The notes below the pieces were generated by a model. It searched no databases. It was not told where the DNA came from and saw only the letters and a list, made by a program, of their open reading frames with translations. The position numbers and the translations under genes are program-made. From a virus, in IMG/VR virus record IMGVR_UViG_3300022227_000049, positions 1 to 20,035 of that record: a DNA stretch of 20,035 nucleotides; one strand, 5' to 3'. Of this stretch, positions 6,469 through 17,974 are shown piece after piece. Positions within the stretch are counted from its first letter, which is position 1; the number at the start of each line of letters is the position of its first letter.

Positions 6469-9400
6469 TTACTTAGGTTTGAATCCACCTTGCGGATACC
6501 ATCCAGGACCACTTGTCTGACCGTTTTCCCAACCACCTGGCGGACCGCGGAAGTTTGGATCACCCAAAGGAATACCACCAACACTAAATCCTCCAATACG
6601 ATCAATCAATGAGTTTAGTAACGAACCACCAATACTATCTTTTAAATCACCCGTAGACGTTAAAGCCAATTCAGCCAACGCTTTGATATTTGCTGCCTGT
6701 CTGTCGGCATTTGCTTGGGCGATTTCTGCCTGGATACGTTCCTGGTCTACATCTAACCGTCTACTACCCAAAACCTGGTCTAAGTCCTGGCCGCGCTGTG
6801 TTGCCATCAACAGAGCATTCGATACGCCCTGATTAATGTCTTGACCACGTTGCGTCACATCTTGCGCACCTTGCTGAATAAGCTGACTGATATCTTGACC
6901 ACGTGATATAACGTCCTGACCACGTGCTGTTACATCCTGACCCCTTTGCGCAACACCCTGCACACCTTCTTGGATCAACTGGTTAATATCTTGACCCCTT
7001 GCCGTTACATCTTGACCACGACCTGCTATGATGCGTTGCAAGTCCTGACCCCTTGTAGCGACAGATTGTCCAATGTCTTGACCACGTGCTGCGATGTCTT
7101 GATCGCGCCCTGCTGTGTAATATTGCAAGTCCTGGTTGCGCTCTGCAATTGCTCTATTGATGTCTTGACCACGACCCGTAATGTCCTGACCACGCTGAGA
7201 CACACCGGCTTGTAAATCTCCCAAAGCCCTTTGGACATCTTGCCCACGTTGCACGACACCTGCCTGTAATTCCTGCCCTGCTCGTGTGACATCTTGCCCA
7301 CGCTGAGATACTCCCGCTTGCAACTCTCCAAGTGCTCGTGAGACATCTTGACCACGTTGTGAAACACCTGCCTGTAATTCTTGTCCCGCACGAGTAACAT
7401 CTTGACCACGCTGGGTAACACCTGCTTGCAATTCGGACTGAAGACGTGACAAGTCCTGCCCACGTTGTGAAACACCTGCCTGTAATTCCTGCCCTGCACG
7501 GGTAACATCTTGCCCACGCTGGGATACTCCCGCTTGCAACTCTCCAAGTGCTCGTGAGACATCTTGACCACGTTGTCCAAGACCCGTCTGCAATTCCTGA
7601 CCACGCGATGTGATGTCCTGACCACGTTGTGAAACACCTGCTTGTAATTCACCCAACAACTGGTTGATATCTTGACCACGTTGTGCCGTTCCTGCTGTAA
7701 GCTCTTGACCTGCACGGGTAACGTCTTGACCACGTTGTGAAACACCTGCCTGTAGCTCAGACTGTAGACGTGACAAGTCCTGACCACGCTGTCCAAGACC
7801 CGTCTGCAATTCCTGACCACGCGATGTGATGTCCTGACCACGTTGTGAAACACCTGCTTGTAATTCACCCAACAACTGGTTGATGTCTTGTCCACGTTGC
7901 GATACACCTGCTTGTAGACCTGACTGCACCAGAGCACTTTGCAAGCCCCCAAGATCGAGAGCCTGCCCAACGGCACGGTCTCTACGTGCTTCCTGATTGG
8001 CAGAAAGAGCAAGGTCTTCACGTCCCTGTGCTTCACGTATCTTATTCTCTACAGCAATTCTGTCACCATCACGCAAGATGCCCTGACGTTGCAAGTCTTC
8101 AAGGCGTTGGTCTAACTGTGCTTGCTGGCGAATGTCTAAGTCCTGTTGCTCAAGTGCTGTTGAAGAAGCAAAAGGATCGTTGTTTAAAAAAGACTCTAAC
8201 CGTGTCTGTAGTGCTCCTAAGACACCAGGATTGGCAAGTTGTGTTGCATCTGTCGGTAAGGCACCAATTCCCTGCCTAGCTCTTATCGTTGTTGTCGGTG
8301 CTCCAACATCATCGGGCTTGCTGAAAACATCTTGCCTTGCACGTACCGTTGCTGACTGTTTTGCATCTATCGGTAAAGCACCAACTCCCTGCCTGCCTCT
8401 TATCGTTGTTGTCGGTGCTCCAACATCATCGGGGTTGTCGAAAACATCTTGCCTTGCACGTACCGTTGCTGACTGTTTTGCAGCATAGGGAGCATCAAAG
8501 ATGCCTAATCGATCTCCTATATCTACTGACCGATTAAAACTGTCTATGCCACCATGCCTGTTTGCCATGCTTTTAAAGTCTTCATCGCTAAATCCGGTAA
8601 TCGGCTTGTCGATAGCATTTGCTTCTAAGATGCGCTGTCTCATATCGTCAGTTAATGGTGCTGTTGGCAAGGCATCCAAACCAATACGGTCACCAACATT
8701 TACTGTCTGGCTTGCAGCATCTGGCGCGATCTTGCTGGCTTGCAACCTGTCACCAACTTCTATGTCGCTTACCGATGCTCCTGGCAAGCCACCCAACGGG
8801 TTCAATTCTCGCAACTTACCCGTTGTAGAATTGAATATCGGAATATCTGGTGATCCTACAGCACTGATGGGAGCAAGCGCACCGCTTGTTGTGCCTGTTG
8901 GGAATGTTTCGCGCCCTGGTAATGCTCCTACTGGTGCTCCTGGCAATCCTCCCTGTCTTACTCGTGCTACGCCAGCACTTCCCTTTACACGATCAAGATT
9001 GCTTCCTTCAAATGGACGCAGGTCTGCTGGGGGTATATACGTAGTAAATTCTCCACCAGGCCCTTGCGTTCCCCAAGGTGTATTAAGACCAGGGAAGAAA
9101 GGGGGTGGACCAAAGGGGGGTAGCTCAGGTTGCCCTTGCCCACCACCAGGAGGCTGACCACCAGGAGGCGTTGCAGATGTATCACCACTGGTATCTATAG
9201 GAAAATCTACCAATCCTTCATTGCTGCGCCATTTCAGAAATTCAGTCAAGGTCATGTTGGGAGGAGGCGTTGCACCGCCAGGGGGTTGCCCTTGACCCTG
9301 ACCTGGGGGTTGCCCTTGACCCTGACCTAGGGGAGCGCCGCTTGTTTCATTTAGCGGCATGGTAAATTGGGGATTGTTGGCGATCCACTCCTGTTGCTGT

Positions 9401-11331
9401 TGAGGAGACATCTTGTCAAAACTTCCTTTGAAGTTGGCTGGCAGTTCCTTCCAGTTGACTTGCGTGGGGTTGCTGGGGTCATTTGGATTGTTGTGCCAAG
9501 TGACATTGGGATCGTCTGGTCCTCCTCCTGTGCCACCAGCATTAGAACCATAAAAACCGGGTCGGATGTAGTCAAGTGGCAACCCTGTTTCGGGATGAAA
9601 ACCTGGGGCCGTCTGGTTGGGGTCATAGTCGTCAATCTCATCAGGATCCACCCACTTTCCGTCCCACCAAACCAGACCTTCATCATCTGGTCCTTCGCTA
9701 CCTACCTGACTCCAATGCAGCCCCGGCCCTGCCATGGGCACCTGGGTGCCGGCGAGTGACTCGTAAAGTGAATTGTCTTGTGTACCACCCTTAACCCACT
9801 GCCACACACCATTAACAAGACGTCGCACCATTCCTGGTGGTTGACCTGGTGGTTGACCTGGTGGTTGACCTGGTGGTTGACCTGGTGGTAGCCCCTGGTC
9901 TTCCGGTGGTCGGATGCCGGGGTCTCCCACGGGATTGCCATCAGCGTCCAGGCCCGTGGTCTCGACGCCCGGGGCTGCTCCGTTCCATCCGATAGGATGC
10001 CAAATGGGATGGTTAAGCCCTTCTCTTTCCATTCTTGTATGGTAGTCTGCGTTGCTTTCTCCTGCATAAGGGACTGGTGATCTCCCAGCCTCCACTTCAT
10101 CTAAAAAATCAGGCATTACTTCGCCTGCACGGGGATGACCTGCTGGATATCGCTGACCACCGGGAGGCTGTTGACCACCAGGAGGCTGACCACTGCCTGG
10201 TTGATCGGAATAATGACCAGGCAATATTTCTCGCAGATACGGATCTGCAAAAGGTATGCGAGACGCATCGGGATCAGGAGTCCATCCGATAGGATGATAA
10301 ATGGGATGGTTAAGCCCCAATCTTTCCATTCTTACGTGGTAGTCTGCGTTGCTTTCTCCTGGATAAGGAGCCTTCTCGTATGGCGTAGGCTGACCATATG
10401 TACCAGAAGGCTGAGCCGCCAGCCAATCACTCATCCAGTTATCCGGCCATCCACTGGTATCAACAGGCTGCTGACCACCGGGAGGCTGACCACCGGGTGG
10501 TTGACCTGCAGGTTTGGTCGAGACAGGTAATCCTTCATTGCTTTCATTAGGGCCTACACCCAATACACCTGTCGCTCCACCCTGCGCTAATCGTATCGCT
10601 CGTGCCAGATTGCTTTCATTGGATGGATTGCCGTATGTCTTAGGGCCTACACCCAATACACCTGTTGCGCCCCCCTGTGCTAATCGTATCGCTCGTGCCA
10701 GATTGCTTTCATTGGATGGATTGCCGTATGTCTTAGGGCCTACACCCAAACCTGCCAATCGGCTTTGTATCAAAGCTTGCCGTTCAGGGTCATTTAGATC
10801 AGCTTGTTTCTGCGCTTGCCACCTTGCGTCAGCTTGGTTTTTTTCTTCCTGCGTCATATAACCTGATGCAACGTCAGGATCTTTGATGTCAGTTGTCCTA
10901 ACCTGGTGCTGTGGCTGTTGTACCTGCTTGTTCTGATTTGCCGCAAAGATGATGAAGTCGTTAAAGTCCATCTTCCCGTCATTGTTCAGGTCGCCCACCT
11001 GCTCAAAAGATGTGGGAGTCTGCCCAGGTTGCAAAGGTTGCTGTGCTGTCTGGTTTGCCAATGGGTTTTGTTGCCCAGGCGCAGATGGCATCGGTGGTGC
11101 AGGTGGTGGTGGCGGGGGTGGTGGGGGCGCAGGTGCTTGCTGTGGAGCAGGAGCAGGTTGCTGTGCAGGAGCAGGGTGCTGACCAATGGAATATTGGTAA
11201 TTCTGCGGTCCGGGCTGCTGACCAATGGAATATTGGTAATTCTGCGGTCCGGGCTGCTGATACTGCTGATACTGCTGATACTGCTCACCTGTAAACCCTT
11301 TACCGCCACGTTGCTGAGTGTTGTATGCCAT
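6469..11331 (-). CDS. Giant repeat-rich virion-associated protein, 1620 aa
   Basis: Family not recognised. ATG at 11331 overlaps the nozzle gene's TAA by one base (TAATG), with AGGGG about 7 nt upstream. Order: Gln/Tyr/Pro-rich N-terminus with a doubled 13-residue unit (26-51); polyproline (about 53-80); one dockerin/EF-hand-like loop DLNNDGKMDFND (114-125); a tandem 31-residue repeat (195-256); Gly/Pro/Gln-rich linkers with a 28-residue motif copied twice and a GQPP run (about 290-760); a region with recurring GDR[LI] words and a tandem 39-residue repeat (951-1028); a charged helical stretch (about 1065-1138); 14 copies of an 18-residue repeat (1139-1390); an irregular RGQD array (1391-1527); and a Gly/Pro-rich C-terminus. 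No signal peptide or membrane segment is seen. Position between nozzle and fibre suggests a structural or ejected virion protein, perhaps an elongated rod. A tail appendage, needle or internal core component are all possible. Confidence 0.8.
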   Translation of the reverse strand: MAYNTQQRGGKGFTGEQYQQYQQYQQPGPQNYQYSIGQQPGPQNYQYSIGQHPAPAQQPAPAPQQAPAPPPPPPPPPAPPMPSAPGQQNPLANQTAQQPLQPGQTPTSFEQVGDLNNDGKMDFNDFIIFAANQNKQVQQPQHQVRTTDIKDPDVASGYMTQEEKNQADARWQAQKQADLNDPERQALIQSRLAGLGVGPKTYGNPSNESNLARAIRLAQGGATGVLGVGPKTYGNPSNESNLARAIRLAQGGATGVLGVGPNESNEGLPVSTKPAGQPPGGQPPGGQQPVDTSGWPDNWMSDWLAAQPSGTYGQPTPYEKAPYPGESNADYHVRMERLGLNHPIYHPIGWTPDPDASRIPFADPYLREILPGHYSDQPGSGQPPGGQQPPGGQRYPAGHPRAGEVMPDFLDEVEAGRSPVPYAGESNADYHTRMEREGLNHPIWHPIGWNGAAPGVETTGLDADGNPVGDPGIRPPEDQGLPPGQPPGQPPGQPPGQPPGMVRRLVNGVWQWVKGGTQDNSLYESLAGTQVPMAGPGLHWSQVGSEGPDDEGLVWWDGKWVDPDEIDDYDPNQTAPGFHPETGLPLDYIRPGFYGSNAGGTGGGPDDPNVTWHNNPNDPSNPTQVNWKELPANFKGSFDKMSPQQQQEWIANNPQFTMPLNETSGAPLGQGQGQPPGQGQGQPPGGATPPPNMTLTEFLKWRSNEGLVDFPIDTSGDTSATPPGGQPPGGGQGQPELPPFGPPPFFPGLNTPWGTQGPGGEFTTYIPPADLRPFEGSNLDRVKGSAGVARVRQGGLPGAPVGALPGRETFPTGTTSGALAPISAVGSPDIPIFNSTTGKLRELNPLGGLPGASVSDIEVGDRLQASKIAPDAASQTVNVGDRIGLDALPTAPLTDDMRQRILEANAIDKPITGFSDEDFKSMANRHGGIDSFNRSVDIGDRLGIFDAPYAAKQSATVRARQDVFDNPDDVGAPTTTIRGRQGVGALPIDAKQSATVRARQDVFSKPDDVGAPTTTIRARQGIGALPTDATQLANPGVLGALQTRLESFLNNDPFASSTALEQQDLDIRQQAQLDQRLEDLQRQGILRDGDRIAVENKIREAQGREDLALSANQEARRDRAVGQALDLGGLQSALVQSGLQAGVSQRGQDINQLLGELQAGVSQRGQDITSRGQELQTGLGQRGQDLSRLQSELQAGVSQRGQDVTRAGQELTAGTAQRGQDINQLLGELQAGVSQRGQDITSRGQELQTGLGQRGQDVSRALGELQAGVSQRGQDVTRAGQELQAGVSQRGQDLSRLQSELQAGVTQRGQDVTRAGQELQAGVSQRGQDVSRALGELQAGVSQRGQDVTRAGQELQAGVVQRGQDVQRALGDLQAGVSQRGQDITGRGQDINRAIAERNQDLQYYTAGRDQDIAARGQDIGQSVATRGQDLQRIIAGRGQDVTARGQDINQLIQEGVQGVAQRGQDVTARGQDVISRGQDISQLIQQGAQDVTQRGQDINQGVSNALLMATQRGQDLDQVLGSRRLDVDQERIQAEIAQANADRQAANIKALAELALTSTGDLKDSIGGSLLNSLIDRIGGFSVGGIPLGDPNFRGPPGGWENGQTSGPGWYPQGGFKPK
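6751..7161 (-). repeat. Irregular RGQD array with 7/11/18-residue spacing
   Basis: Continuing from the regular array, residues 1391-1527 of the 1620-aa protein carry QD-type words (RNQD, RDQD, RGQD, LDQ). The spacings of successive QD or terminal D residues are 11, 7, 11, 11, 7, 18, 7, 7, 11, 7, 18 and 11. Every spacing is 7, 11, or their sum, so the register of the upstream 18-residue (7+11) repeat is preserved although the sequence has drifted. This is what a continuous helical coat or rod would show (7 residues = 2 turns, 11 = 3 turns). Confidence 0.85.
7162..7917 (-). repeat. Fourteen tandem 54-nt (18-aa) repeats, consensus LQAGVSQRGQDVTRAGQE
   Basis: Fourteen uninterrupted units of exactly 18 codons (residues 1139-1390). 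QRGQD is invariant at unit positions 7-11. Position 1 is always Leu, position 4 always Gly and position 18 always Glu or Asp. Variation is concentrated at positions 12-17, which read NQLLG, TSRGQ, SRLQS, TRAGQ or SRALG types. There are no Cys, Trp, Tyr or Phe in the array. A higher-order period of four units (216 nt) is visible in near-exact DNA copies. Confidence 0.95.
8248..8481 (-). repeat. Tandem 117-nt (39-aa) duplication in the 1620-aa gene
   Basis: Two head-to-tail copies, transcribed 8481-8365 then 8364-8248. Each begins AKQSATVRARQDVF and continues DDVGAPTTTIR then RQG[VI]GALP. The plus-strand word cttgccttgcacgtaccg at 8331 recurs at 8448, exactly 117 nt away. High nucleotide identity indicates a fairly recent in-frame duplication. 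Confidence 0.92.
9833..9890 (-). repeat. 12-nt tandem repeat coding GQPP
   Basis: The plus-strand unit cctggtggttga is repeated four times from 9833, followed by a partial copy. It encodes a short GQPPGQPPGQPP run. The four-residue period does not fit a collagen Gly-X-Y helix, so this is more likely a flexible linker. Confidence 0.88.
9985..10365 (-). repeat. Two dispersed copies of a 28-residue motif (GESNADYH...HPIGW)
   Basis: Copies occupy 10282-10365 and 9985-10068, 297 nt (99 codons) apart. Both encode Y-x-GESNADYH, then RME, then GLNHPI and HPIGW, differing at a few positions only. The motif is well ordered (His, Trp, Tyr, acidic residues) inside otherwise low-complexity Gly/Pro/Gln linker, so it may be a small folded or binding module. 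I do not recognise it. Confidence 0.85.
10549..10749 (-). repeat. Tandem 93-nt (31-aa) repeat, two copies plus a fragment
   Basis: Copies at 10749-10657 and 10656-10564, each coding LGVGPKTYGNPSNESNLARA and then IRLAQGGATGV. A third, broken copy (LGVGP followed by NESNEG) begins at 10563. The plus-strand word agggcctacaccca occurs at 10549, 10642 and 10735, exactly 93 nt apart. The two full copies are almost identical, so the duplication is recent. Confidence 0.93.
10957..10992 (-). other. Dockerin/EF-hand-like calcium loop in the 1620-aa protein
   Basis: Residues 114-125 read DLNNDGKMDFND and are followed by FIIFAANQ. This has Asp at 1, Asn at 3, Asp at 5, Gly at 6, a hydrophobic residue at 8, Asp at 9 and Asp at 12, the classic ligand spacing of dockerin type I and EF-hand loops. 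Only one copy is present; a full dockerin has two. Calcium binding is inferred from the pattern. Confidence 0.72.
11179..11256 (-). repeat. Tandem 39-nt (13-aa) duplication near the N-terminus of the 1620-aa protein
   Basis: QPGPQNYQYSIGQ is repeated head to tail at residues 26-51 with one residue change visible at the junction to the polyproline stretch. The plus-strand word accaatggaatattggtaat occurs at 11182 and again at 11221, exactly 39 nt apart. Confidence 0.93.
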
Positions 11332-12866
11332 TATATTACCCCTGTTCCACGTTTATGCGTCTGCCCGATCTGACGATAAACACCTGTAAATTTACGGATA
11401 GAGAACTCTTCGGCAGATGTAGCATTTCGGTATTTCACCTGTATATGTGGGTCATATCCCAACAATAAACTGTCTACATTGCACACCAGAAGATCTTCAG
11501 CAGCAATGACAGATGTCCCAATCGTAAAAGTTGTCTCTATAGCATCGAATGTTCCTGACTGCACGACGACATCTGTGACTTCTGGATGACTCGGCATCGT
11601 AGCGGTAAACTCTATATCGTAATCTCCCACGATGTCTAAAGATGTCCTGCCATACAGCCACCGCTCCACTTCTGTCTCGCCCTGTGGTGCTGCCGATGAT
11701 GTCTGAAACCACGCATCTATAACATTTGCTGTTGTGCCATCGTTATCACTGAATGTGGTGGGTTCCTGATCGAAGATATATCCATCGCTGATACCGCCGG
11801 TATATGGCTTGTTGTTCACTATCGCGCAGGTGTTACGAGCAAATCCGCTCCATCGGGGATAGAAGATATTTAAGCGGTAGTTGTATACCAGAATATTATT
11901 CATCGTTGTCTGGCCGGATCCGTATGGCAGAAAAAACCATACTTCGTTGCGTGTCGGATAATCACAGGCAAATGCGTTGTTTAACGCTGATTCATTGATA
12001 TCATTCCAATATCTATCGCCATCCATACGTTCTGACAATTTCCTGCTGCTGTTACCGTCAAAGGCATAGATACCGTCTTCTCTCACATATACCTGCACTT
12101 CTCCAACTTCTGGTGTCGTAATCGTCTGTATAGAGAATGGTGCCACTGTCCCTTTTGCCTGTTTGGGAACTTTTCGGTATGGCGTTACAGAATTACCGGT
12201 AGGGACGAGAAGGTGTATGATATCGTCACCGTGTATCACTAAGAAATTGCTCATCTTCTTCAGACCCGTAACAATAGACCCTTGCTGAAAGAATGCTGTA
12301 GCATCCCATGTCTCGATGTCTGCAAGGTCGCTCCTCCATACCCTGTCTGTTCCTGACGACAAGTTTCCTGCCCATGCCCTGTTGTCCCAAAACTCCCAAT
12401 ATTTTGCTGTGGTGAATCGGCTGTTGACATCTAAGGTCTCTATATTCCCTGCTGCTGCTGTCCACTTGAAGATGATATCGCTACTTACTCCATCATGCCC
12501 AATCAATGTGCCGTTAGCGTCTGCTACTGACCACTTTTCCCCTGCTGTTATCGTTGCCGCTCCCGTCCTGGCCGTAAACCCTGTGCCTACTCCTGACGTG
12601 TCTTCATAAAAAGCACCACCCGCTATTGTCCATATCCGCTTAGTATCTGCATCAAACTTGTGCTGTCCTAAAGCATCTATCGTAGGAGTTCCAGCAATTA
12701 CAGTGTTGAATGTCGCAGATCCCGATCGTTGCCGTGCAGAACCGTCAGGGAATATCCGCACATTCTCACCATCATAGATTTCTTGCAGGTGCAAGTCATC
12801 ACTGGGCTTTGAAGCATTCCACCCATAAATCCAGGGACCATAGACATGATCTTGTCCGATGCGCAT
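11331..12866 (-). CDS. Tail nozzle / stabilisation protein (tail tubular protein B-like, P22 gp10-like role), 511 aa
   Basis: In short-tailed phages this protein assembles below the adaptor ring to form the tail nozzle and plug. The sequence is beta-rich with repeating aromatic/Gly strands suggestive of a propeller-like fold. Supporting words are an N-terminal LQEIYDGENVRIFPDGSARQ (early strand pair with conserved asparagine/arginine), VYVREDGIYAFDGNSSRKL around residue 263, and NNAFACDYPTRNEVWFFLP. These resemble the repeated 'DGiyafDG...W' blades in phage stabilisation proteins. The ATG overlaps the adaptor's TAA by one base (TAATG), and its own TAA overlaps the next ATG the same way, so three genes appear translationally coupled. 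The assignment rests on motif style plus position directly after the adaptor. It could instead be another beta-propeller tail protein, but the context makes the nozzle most likely. Confidence 0.75.
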   Translation of the reverse strand: MRIGQDHVYGPWIYGWNASKPSDDLHLQEIYDGENVRIFPDGSARQRSGSATFNTVIAGTPTIDALGQHKFDADTKRIWTIAGGAFYEDTSGVGTGFTARTGAATITAGEKWSVADANGTLIGHDGVSSDIIFKWTAAAGNIETLDVNSRFTTAKYWEFWDNRAWAGNLSSGTDRVWRSDLADIETWDATAFFQQGSIVTGLKKMSNFLVIHGDDIIHLLVPTGNSVTPYRKVPKQAKGTVAPFSIQTITTPEVGEVQVYVREDGIYAFDGNSSRKLSERMDGDRYWNDINESALNNAFACDYPTRNEVWFFLPYGSGQTTMNNILVYNYRLNIFYPRWSGFARNTCAIVNNKPYTGGISDGYIFDQEPTTFSDNDGTTANVIDAWFQTSSAAPQGETEVERWLYGRTSLDIVGDYDIEFTATMPSHPEVTDVVVQSGTFDAIETTFTIGTSVIAAEDLLVCNVDSLLLGYDPHIQVKYRNATSAEEFSIRKFTGVYRQIGQTHKRGTGVI

Positions 12867-17575: not shown

Positions 17576-17974
17576 TTACATTTTTGCGGTTGATACTGCT
17601 TCTTCTTCGCTTATATGCCACGCACTGCCATTGTCGGCAATGTCTTGTTGCCGTTGTGCATTGGTTTGTTCGTGCTTCCATGCTTCGTGTTTGGTATTTT
17701 CGCTTCTGCTCATGCCCTTTTCTTTCCACCCTGTCTCTTCAAGACCATGCTCTCTCAGCTGACGTTGTTTGTCTTCAACAGATGAATATGTCAGCCCTGT
17801 CTGTATATCTGTATAGGGATAACCTTTTGCGGAGTATCCGACAGTATGTGATGAGTAGTCTTGTTCCATAACACCCCCACATAAGCATCTCAGCGTCTGT
17901 GGTAGGGTGTTTAGAGAAAAATACTGATCGATCTTGGTATTTCCGCATGAGCATTTGAAGTTGTATATAGGCAT
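17576..17974 (-). CDS. FmdB-like zinc ribbon protein, 132 aa
   Basis: N-terminus MPIYNFKCSCG matches the start of FmdB-type zinc ribbon proteins (usually MPxYxYxC). Likely zinc ligands are Cys8 and Cys10, then Cys30 and Cys32, giving C-x-C knuckles rather than the usual C-x-x-C. The rest (residues 40-132) is hydrophilic, helical, and rich in Gln, Lys and Glu (EDKQRQLREHGLEETGWKEK), with no known domain. It begins 9 nt after the portal stop with AAGGG overlapping that stop. The gene sits between portal and scaffold. Small zinc ribbons of this kind are common in phage late operons, with unknown roles. A structural or assembly-regulating function is possible; DNA or RNA binding is not proven. 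Confidence 0.78.
   Translation of the reverse strand: MPIYNFKCSCGNTKIDQYFSLNTLPQTLRCLCGGVMEQDYSSHTVGYSAKGYPYTDIQTGLTYSSVEDKQRQLREHGLEETGWKEKGMSRSENTKHEAWKHEQTNAQRQQDIADNGSAWHISEEEAVSTAKM

Follow-up and report, generated by a model that had tools for sequence, protein, structure and literature searches.

A half-dockerin calcium module predicted in a long virion protein encoded beside the tail nozzle gene of uncultivated podophages

The DNA analyzed, hereafter the window, is a 20,035-base virus record of IMG/VR (IMGVR_UViG_3300022227_000049), the long genes of which, as far as described here, are all on the minus strand. A protein of 1620 residues, the long virion protein (LVP), is encoded directly after a tail nozzle gene and carries a predicted 12-residue calcium loop with ligands D1, N3, D5, D9 and D12, plus G6 (Table 1). 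The original prediction, made on this DNA from its letters, had located the loop correctly, with FIIFAANQ following it. The plus strand at this place reads VVKVHLPVIVQV, the motif itself being encoded on the minus strand. The described placement of the loop between polyproline and linkers was also right, as a nine-proline run is found upstream and a Q/P-rich linker flanks the loop on both sides.

Table 1. Features of the window discussed in the text
Feature	Position	Strand	Residues of LVP	Remarks
Predicted calcium loop, DLNNDGKMDFND	10957-10992	-	114-125	12 residues
Exiting helix, FIIFAANQ	10933-10956	-	126-133	directly after the loop
Place of entering helix and linker	10996-11058	-	92-112	from alignments
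Nine-proline run	11101-11127	-	69-77	upstream of the module; from translation
LVP, 1620 residues, carries the module	6469-11331	-		ORF translation
Tail nozzle, 511 residues, P22 gp10 / T7 gp12 fold	11331-12866	-		phrog_3287, AF2, Foldseek
LVP family core, EDLNRLGIL.GGDTA.VLGE-type	7948-8208	-	1042-1128	
Helical repeat rod, RGQD-type motifs	6784-7896	-		behind the LVP core
Segment TDDMRQRILEANAID...	8515-8652	-	894-939	
Tandem duplication, 93 bp	10547-10749			96% match
In-gene duplication, 117 bp	8240-8482			
In-gene duplication, 39 bp	11177-11260			
132-residue protein	17576-17974	-		

The pattern D.[DN].DG.[ILVM][DNST]..D occurred 16 times in 50,000 shuffles of the residues of LVP, and a looser loop pattern 73 times, numbers which refer to patterns picked after the motif had been seen. 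Retention of the predicted loop in relatives is, in our judgement, stronger evidence than these chance estimates. Relatives were collected by scanning IMG/VR with the N-terminal piece of LVP, the 511-residue nozzle protein, the head protein, and a nozzle alignment, the best 80 of 184 matches being retained in the last scan. The scans yielded 130 sequences, including the window; three of these, L002, L003 and L004, repeat other loci or the window, and were omitted from the sets of open reading frames (ORFs). The 109 nozzle matches are followed by an ORF in 97 cases, and these correspond to 67 distinct proteins. Calcium loops detected by a regular expression are confined to the protein encoded after the nozzle, the eight matches lying outside the list of 67 being either copies of listed proteins, encoded in overlapping loci, or truncated versions of that gene. 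A hidden Markov model (HMM) of the module, trained on several of the sequences that it retrieves (L001, L013, L046, L061 and L057 were not in the training set), matched 13 of the 67 proteins at E<=1e-10, and L083 weakly (E 0.0013). None of the other kinds of ORF in the loci matched the HMM significantly. By both regular expression and HMM, the window and the other carriers have a single loop per chain. The exception is L085, in which a protein of 1102 residues (L085:8505-11810) has five half-dockerin modules; two of these, within the last third of the protein, lie at a distance of 61 residues from each other. Among isolated phages, no match at E<=10 was found for the 30-residue module of the window, nor any match for the L085 protein, and the L065 module matched nothing beyond four records of Salmonella phages (E 8-9).

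Profile comparisons point to dockerins. A profile of eight single-copy modules, L085 being left out, has the dockerin 2y3n_B as best PDB match (E=2e-13), and so has a module profile including L085 (E 2.3e-11). Profile positions 5-41 align to residues 26-62 of 2y3n_B, covering the end of helix 1, the linker, loop 2 and helix 2. The eight-module profile retrieved 42 sequences at 0.01, many of which are dockerins, others EF-hand proteins aligned over loop and exiting helix. The original prediction had called the loop dockerin-like, and proposed a search with dockerin type I and EF-hand models. The label holds at the family level, given the match of the single-copy profile to 2y3n_B and the score of L085, which alone passes the Dockerin_1 cut-off (31.5 bits) and is barely above that of EF-hand_1 (25.5 vs. 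25.4 bits); it does not hold for the window taken alone, which stays below both. The refuting outcome named in the original prediction, a motif missing from close homologues together with no profile match above noise, did not occur.

Phage modules share with type I dockerins (PF00404; 2y3n chain B) the loop D-x-N-x-D-G-x-I/V-N/D-x-x-D, with D at position 12, the helix following it, and a remnant of the first helix with the linker ahead of the loop. The entering helix is degenerate in the window, and features FxxAF...GDxNY in most of the aligned relatives. Phage modules differ in that, L085 excepted, one half only is found per chain, inside a phage protein and mostly in its N-terminal part. With EF-hands (PF00036) they share the 12-residue loop and the exiting helix, and the best phmmer matches of the 30 window residues are troponin C (E 1.1e-4) and SCaMC-1, 2y3n_B being found at 2.3e-4. 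Yet the family profile aligns calmodulins over loop and exiting helix only, dockerins over the preceding stretch as well, and position 12, usually E in EF-hands, is D in the phage loops. We assign the window motif to an inherited half-dockerin module, of which it would provide the calcium loop and the helix leaving it. The term is preferred to full dockerin domain because one repeat is present and the window lies below the cut-off.

Fifteen loops, assembled by hand from regular-expression and HMM results, were compared. D1, D5 and D12 are found in all, N or D at position 3 in 14, G6 in 13 of the 15. L001, a near-twin of the window, matches it at all but one of 2559 bases, and the exception falls at loop position 2, a non-ligand position. 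Window and L008 modules differ, over 24 codons, by 16 synonymous and 2 nonsynonymous changes (Nei-Gojobori); the nonsynonymous value (pN) is 0.033 vs. 0.32-0.48 for the remaining local alignments of this gene. This comparison relies on a local alignment, since the modules occupy different places in the two proteins and were left unaligned by the script run on nine pairs. Changes accumulate more slowly in the module than elsewhere in the protein for L064/L065 (0.037 vs. 0.224) and L013/L015 (0 vs. 0.017), and module values are lower also in L061/L064 (0.203 vs. 0.283) and L057/L064 (0.270 vs. 0.308). Slow evolution of the whole module, tested on the nine pairs, was dropped as a general rule, the pairs being mixed. 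Because pairwise rates are mixed, the ligand set, rather than the entire stretch, is taken to be what is generally conserved. Invariance of D1, D5 and D12, along with variation at other loop positions and the occurrence of a single copy within a low-complexity linker, would suit a structural staple as well, a permanently bound calcium stiffening the linker, with neither switching nor partner binding. This seems unlikely to us, since a lone calcium loop usually binds weakly, and a copy number ranging from 0 to 5 suggests more than a fixed staple.

The distribution of the module was monitored on a nozzle tree with 65 rows (module present in 12, missing in 39, and undecidable in 14, where the protein is cut), in which the weak loop of L083 was set by hand to present, and from which the module-bearing L064 and L065 were omitted, their nozzles being cut short. 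All carriers on this tree fall in one of its halves, where 12 of the 24 rows have the module, 5 lack it and 7 are undecidable; in the other half the module is missing in 34 rows, and 7 are undecidable. The module label requires four changes, vs. a mean of 10.9 upon shuffling, and none of 500 shuffles gave a number as low. The root was set at the midpoint, and L083 and L085 sit on long branches. One gain followed by later losses appears the simplest history. The original prediction had considered the motif possibly host-derived. Similar words do occur in cells, the closest being 13 loci confirmed out of 315 pattern matches (52-72% identity over short stretches), in Phycisphaerae, another planctomycete, Gracilibacteria, Peregrinibacteria and a Bathyarchaeote. 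Cellular words are mostly found near the C-terminus, several as tandem pairs, while phage modules are in single copy, or five in L085. These data fit an old origin of the module from cellular dockerins, no host being named. Recent capture from a host was rejected, as the module follows the phage tree; being inherited within one phage clade, it is unlikely to be a late acquisition. No relative of the nozzle alignment was found in the genome collection, and for this reason no host or prophage was assigned.

The gene directly upstream of LVP is identified, by the modelled fold of its product, as that of a podophage tail nozzle. An AlphaFold2 (AF2) model, obtained from 23 sequences (mean pLDDT 87.5), matched in Foldseek the solved podophage tail proteins of Pa223 (E 4.9e-22), VP1 (6.2e-21) and P22 (3.4e-16), T7 gp12 being also among the matches. 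An earlier PDB profile search with the nozzle had given a weak pointer to the same tail proteins; a tblastn search of the nozzle sequence against isolated phages gave no match, the identity being placed by the fold search. The LVP gene lies between the nozzle and a tail fibre gene, the latter judged by eye, from which it is separated by two genes (414 and 620 residues). That LVP is a phage structural protein, as originally predicted, is supported by gene order after the fold-confirmed nozzle.

Gene order and weak profile matches make it about an even chance that LVP is a DNA-ejection protein. The glycine-rich C-termini of L057 and L064 weakly match P22_gp7 (18.2 and 17.4 bits, cut-off 28), weakly resemble tape-measure families, and suggest an ejection protein; profile searches with the window LVP gave no match to known ejection proteins. 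A gene place between those of nozzle and fibre is shared with podophage ejection proteins (P22 gp7, T7 gp14/gp15/gp16), the glycine-rich C-terminus of L057 and L064 with P22 gp7. LVP is far longer, and differs from these proteins also in the poly-proline, the calcium module and the 18-residue helical repeats. The three proteins between nozzle and fibre (LVP and those of 414 and 620 residues) recall the T7 gene order. T7 gp14, gp15 and gp16 are reported to make up the internal core (PMC11784390).

The reading we favour, with a probability of about 0.5, is that a half-dockerin, inherited in one clade of uncultivated podophages, acts as a calcium-dependent folding or oligomerization clip in an LVP which is probably ejected. 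The putative module resides where LVP is rich in Pro and Gln, the LVP gene being the next one after that of the nozzle. LVP would most likely be packaged in the head and then ejected. Judging from its ligands, the module most likely takes up a single Ca2+ ion and requires calcium for folding. Cytoplasmic calcium levels are low, those of sea water and of the vicinity of the cell surface millimolar. The module would stay unfolded during virion assembly in the low-calcium cytoplasm, and fold in calcium-rich water or at the cell envelope, stiffening or clipping the N-terminal region of LVP, perhaps upon pairing with the same module on a neighbouring chain. A split dockerin, in which two chains provide half each and complete one calcium-dependent domain, is a long shot. 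If it existed, assembly or locking of the ejection complex (or fibre) would depend on calcium and be confined to places beyond the calcium-poor cytoplasm; the five halves on the single chain of L085 would represent a within-chain form of the same arrangement.

Several observations weigh against the calcium clip. The window module passes no Pfam cut-off, a 54-residue piece scoring 15.9 bits with Dockerin_1 (cut-off 22.9) and 16.3 bits with EF-hand_1 (25.4), and its degenerate entering helix points the same way. A 66-residue model of the module has a mean pLDDT of 62, and found no match in Foldseek, a result which is uninformative, as the confident part spans some 20 residues only; within it, the exiting helix is modelled as helix (block means of 76 and 85, residues 31-50). 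The module outpaces the remainder of the protein in L061/L065 (0.171 vs. 0.119), and is about equal in L057/L040 (0.359 vs. 0.358), about equal or slightly faster in L074/window (0.574 vs. 0.526) and L074/L008 (0.649 vs. 0.528). It is also dispensable, being missing in the five decidable members of its clade mentioned above, and at L016:14379-16490, beside L015 and L013, a decayed loop, EYNPDGSVNLQG, is found in the homologous place, which probably marks loss of the site. The decayed copy, the similar cellular words, and the several pairs in which the module overall is under no particular constraint would be expected also of a functionless host-derived relic, drifting in a tolerant linker. Such a relic is highly improbable, given the retention of ligand positions across a deep clade and the excess of synonymous changes between window and L008 modules.

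A further point on the same side concerns the role of LVP. The proteins encoded at L018:11407-13932 and L051:12221-15274 end with a chaperone domain of the Peptidase_S74 family (36.2 and 40.6 bits, cut-off 22), which suggests a role as fibre and not in ejection. LVP might accordingly be an external fibre or a tail needle, the half-dockerin attaching the virion to a cohesin-like protein of the host or to another surface ligand; the dockerin homology (L085 above cut-off, match to 2y3n_B), the strong divergence of N-terminal regions between lineages, and the gene order of P22, where the needle gene follows the nozzle gene, would all agree with this. We regard it as doubtful. The S74-bearing proteins occupy the same gene place and lack the calcium module. 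In L057 and L064, which do carry it, the C-terminus is rich in glycine and resembles that of tape-measure proteins. Solved dockerins bind cohesin via two loop-helix units, and all carriers but L085 have half a dockerin per chain; neither a host nor a cohesin partner was identified.

Phage infection commonly requires calcium, and the part of the particle responsible is often unidentified. A predicted dockerin-related calcium module beside the nozzle gene would be a small, concrete and expressible candidate for this requirement, and would extend dockerin-type sequences to virion proteins of uncultivated podophages. Searches of the open full-text literature (dockerin with phage or virus, EF-hand with virion), in which most subscription journals are missing, found no phage virion protein with a dockerin module. 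A protein of an E. coli phage is reported to be structurally similar to a carbohydrate-binding module of a cellulosome protein (PMC5967307), which is different from a dockerin module. LysGH15 is reported to be a phage lysin with an EF-hand-like calcium site (PMC4022735); such a site in a phage protein is what it shares with LVP, from which it differs as the endolysin of a staphylococcal phage.

LVPs can be further described by a core of about 90 residues, the HMM of which matched 49 of the 67 proteins; of the 18 left unmatched, 17 are truncated. Compared to PDB, the core profile gave only weak matches to ribosomal S4 and other proteins, taken as chance. In the rod behind the core, RGQD motifs are spaced by 18 residues thirteen times consecutively, then by a mixture of 7, 11 and 18; a spacing of 18 residues, corresponding to five turns, is read as a helix-type repeat. 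The sole match of the window LVP among isolated phages, Acinetobacter phage Acibel004 (two records), falls within the rod. The N-terminal part is variable, and features poly-proline, the calcium module and short duplicated segments. The 93-bp tandem duplication encodes ESNLARAIRLAQGGATGVLG twice, and two further duplications are found within the gene (Table 1). The TDDMRQRILEANAID segment, preceded by about 890 residues in the window LVP, corresponds to the N-terminus of the homologues in L005, L008 and L074.

Genes follow each other on the minus strand in the order 679 (portal by size and place, in our own judgement), 132, 302, 325 (major head protein, phrog_9953), 158, 173, 325 (phrog_8198), 234, 511 (the nozzle, a virion structural protein in phrog_3287), 1620 (LVP), 414 (phrog_13634), 620 and more than 1107 residues, the last with fibre-like repeats judged by eye. 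The 132-residue protein features a CxC...CLCGG pattern, zinc-ribbon-like by eye and presumably of the FmdB type. Its gene sits between portal-like and scaffold-like genes, and a relative is found in the same place in L002.

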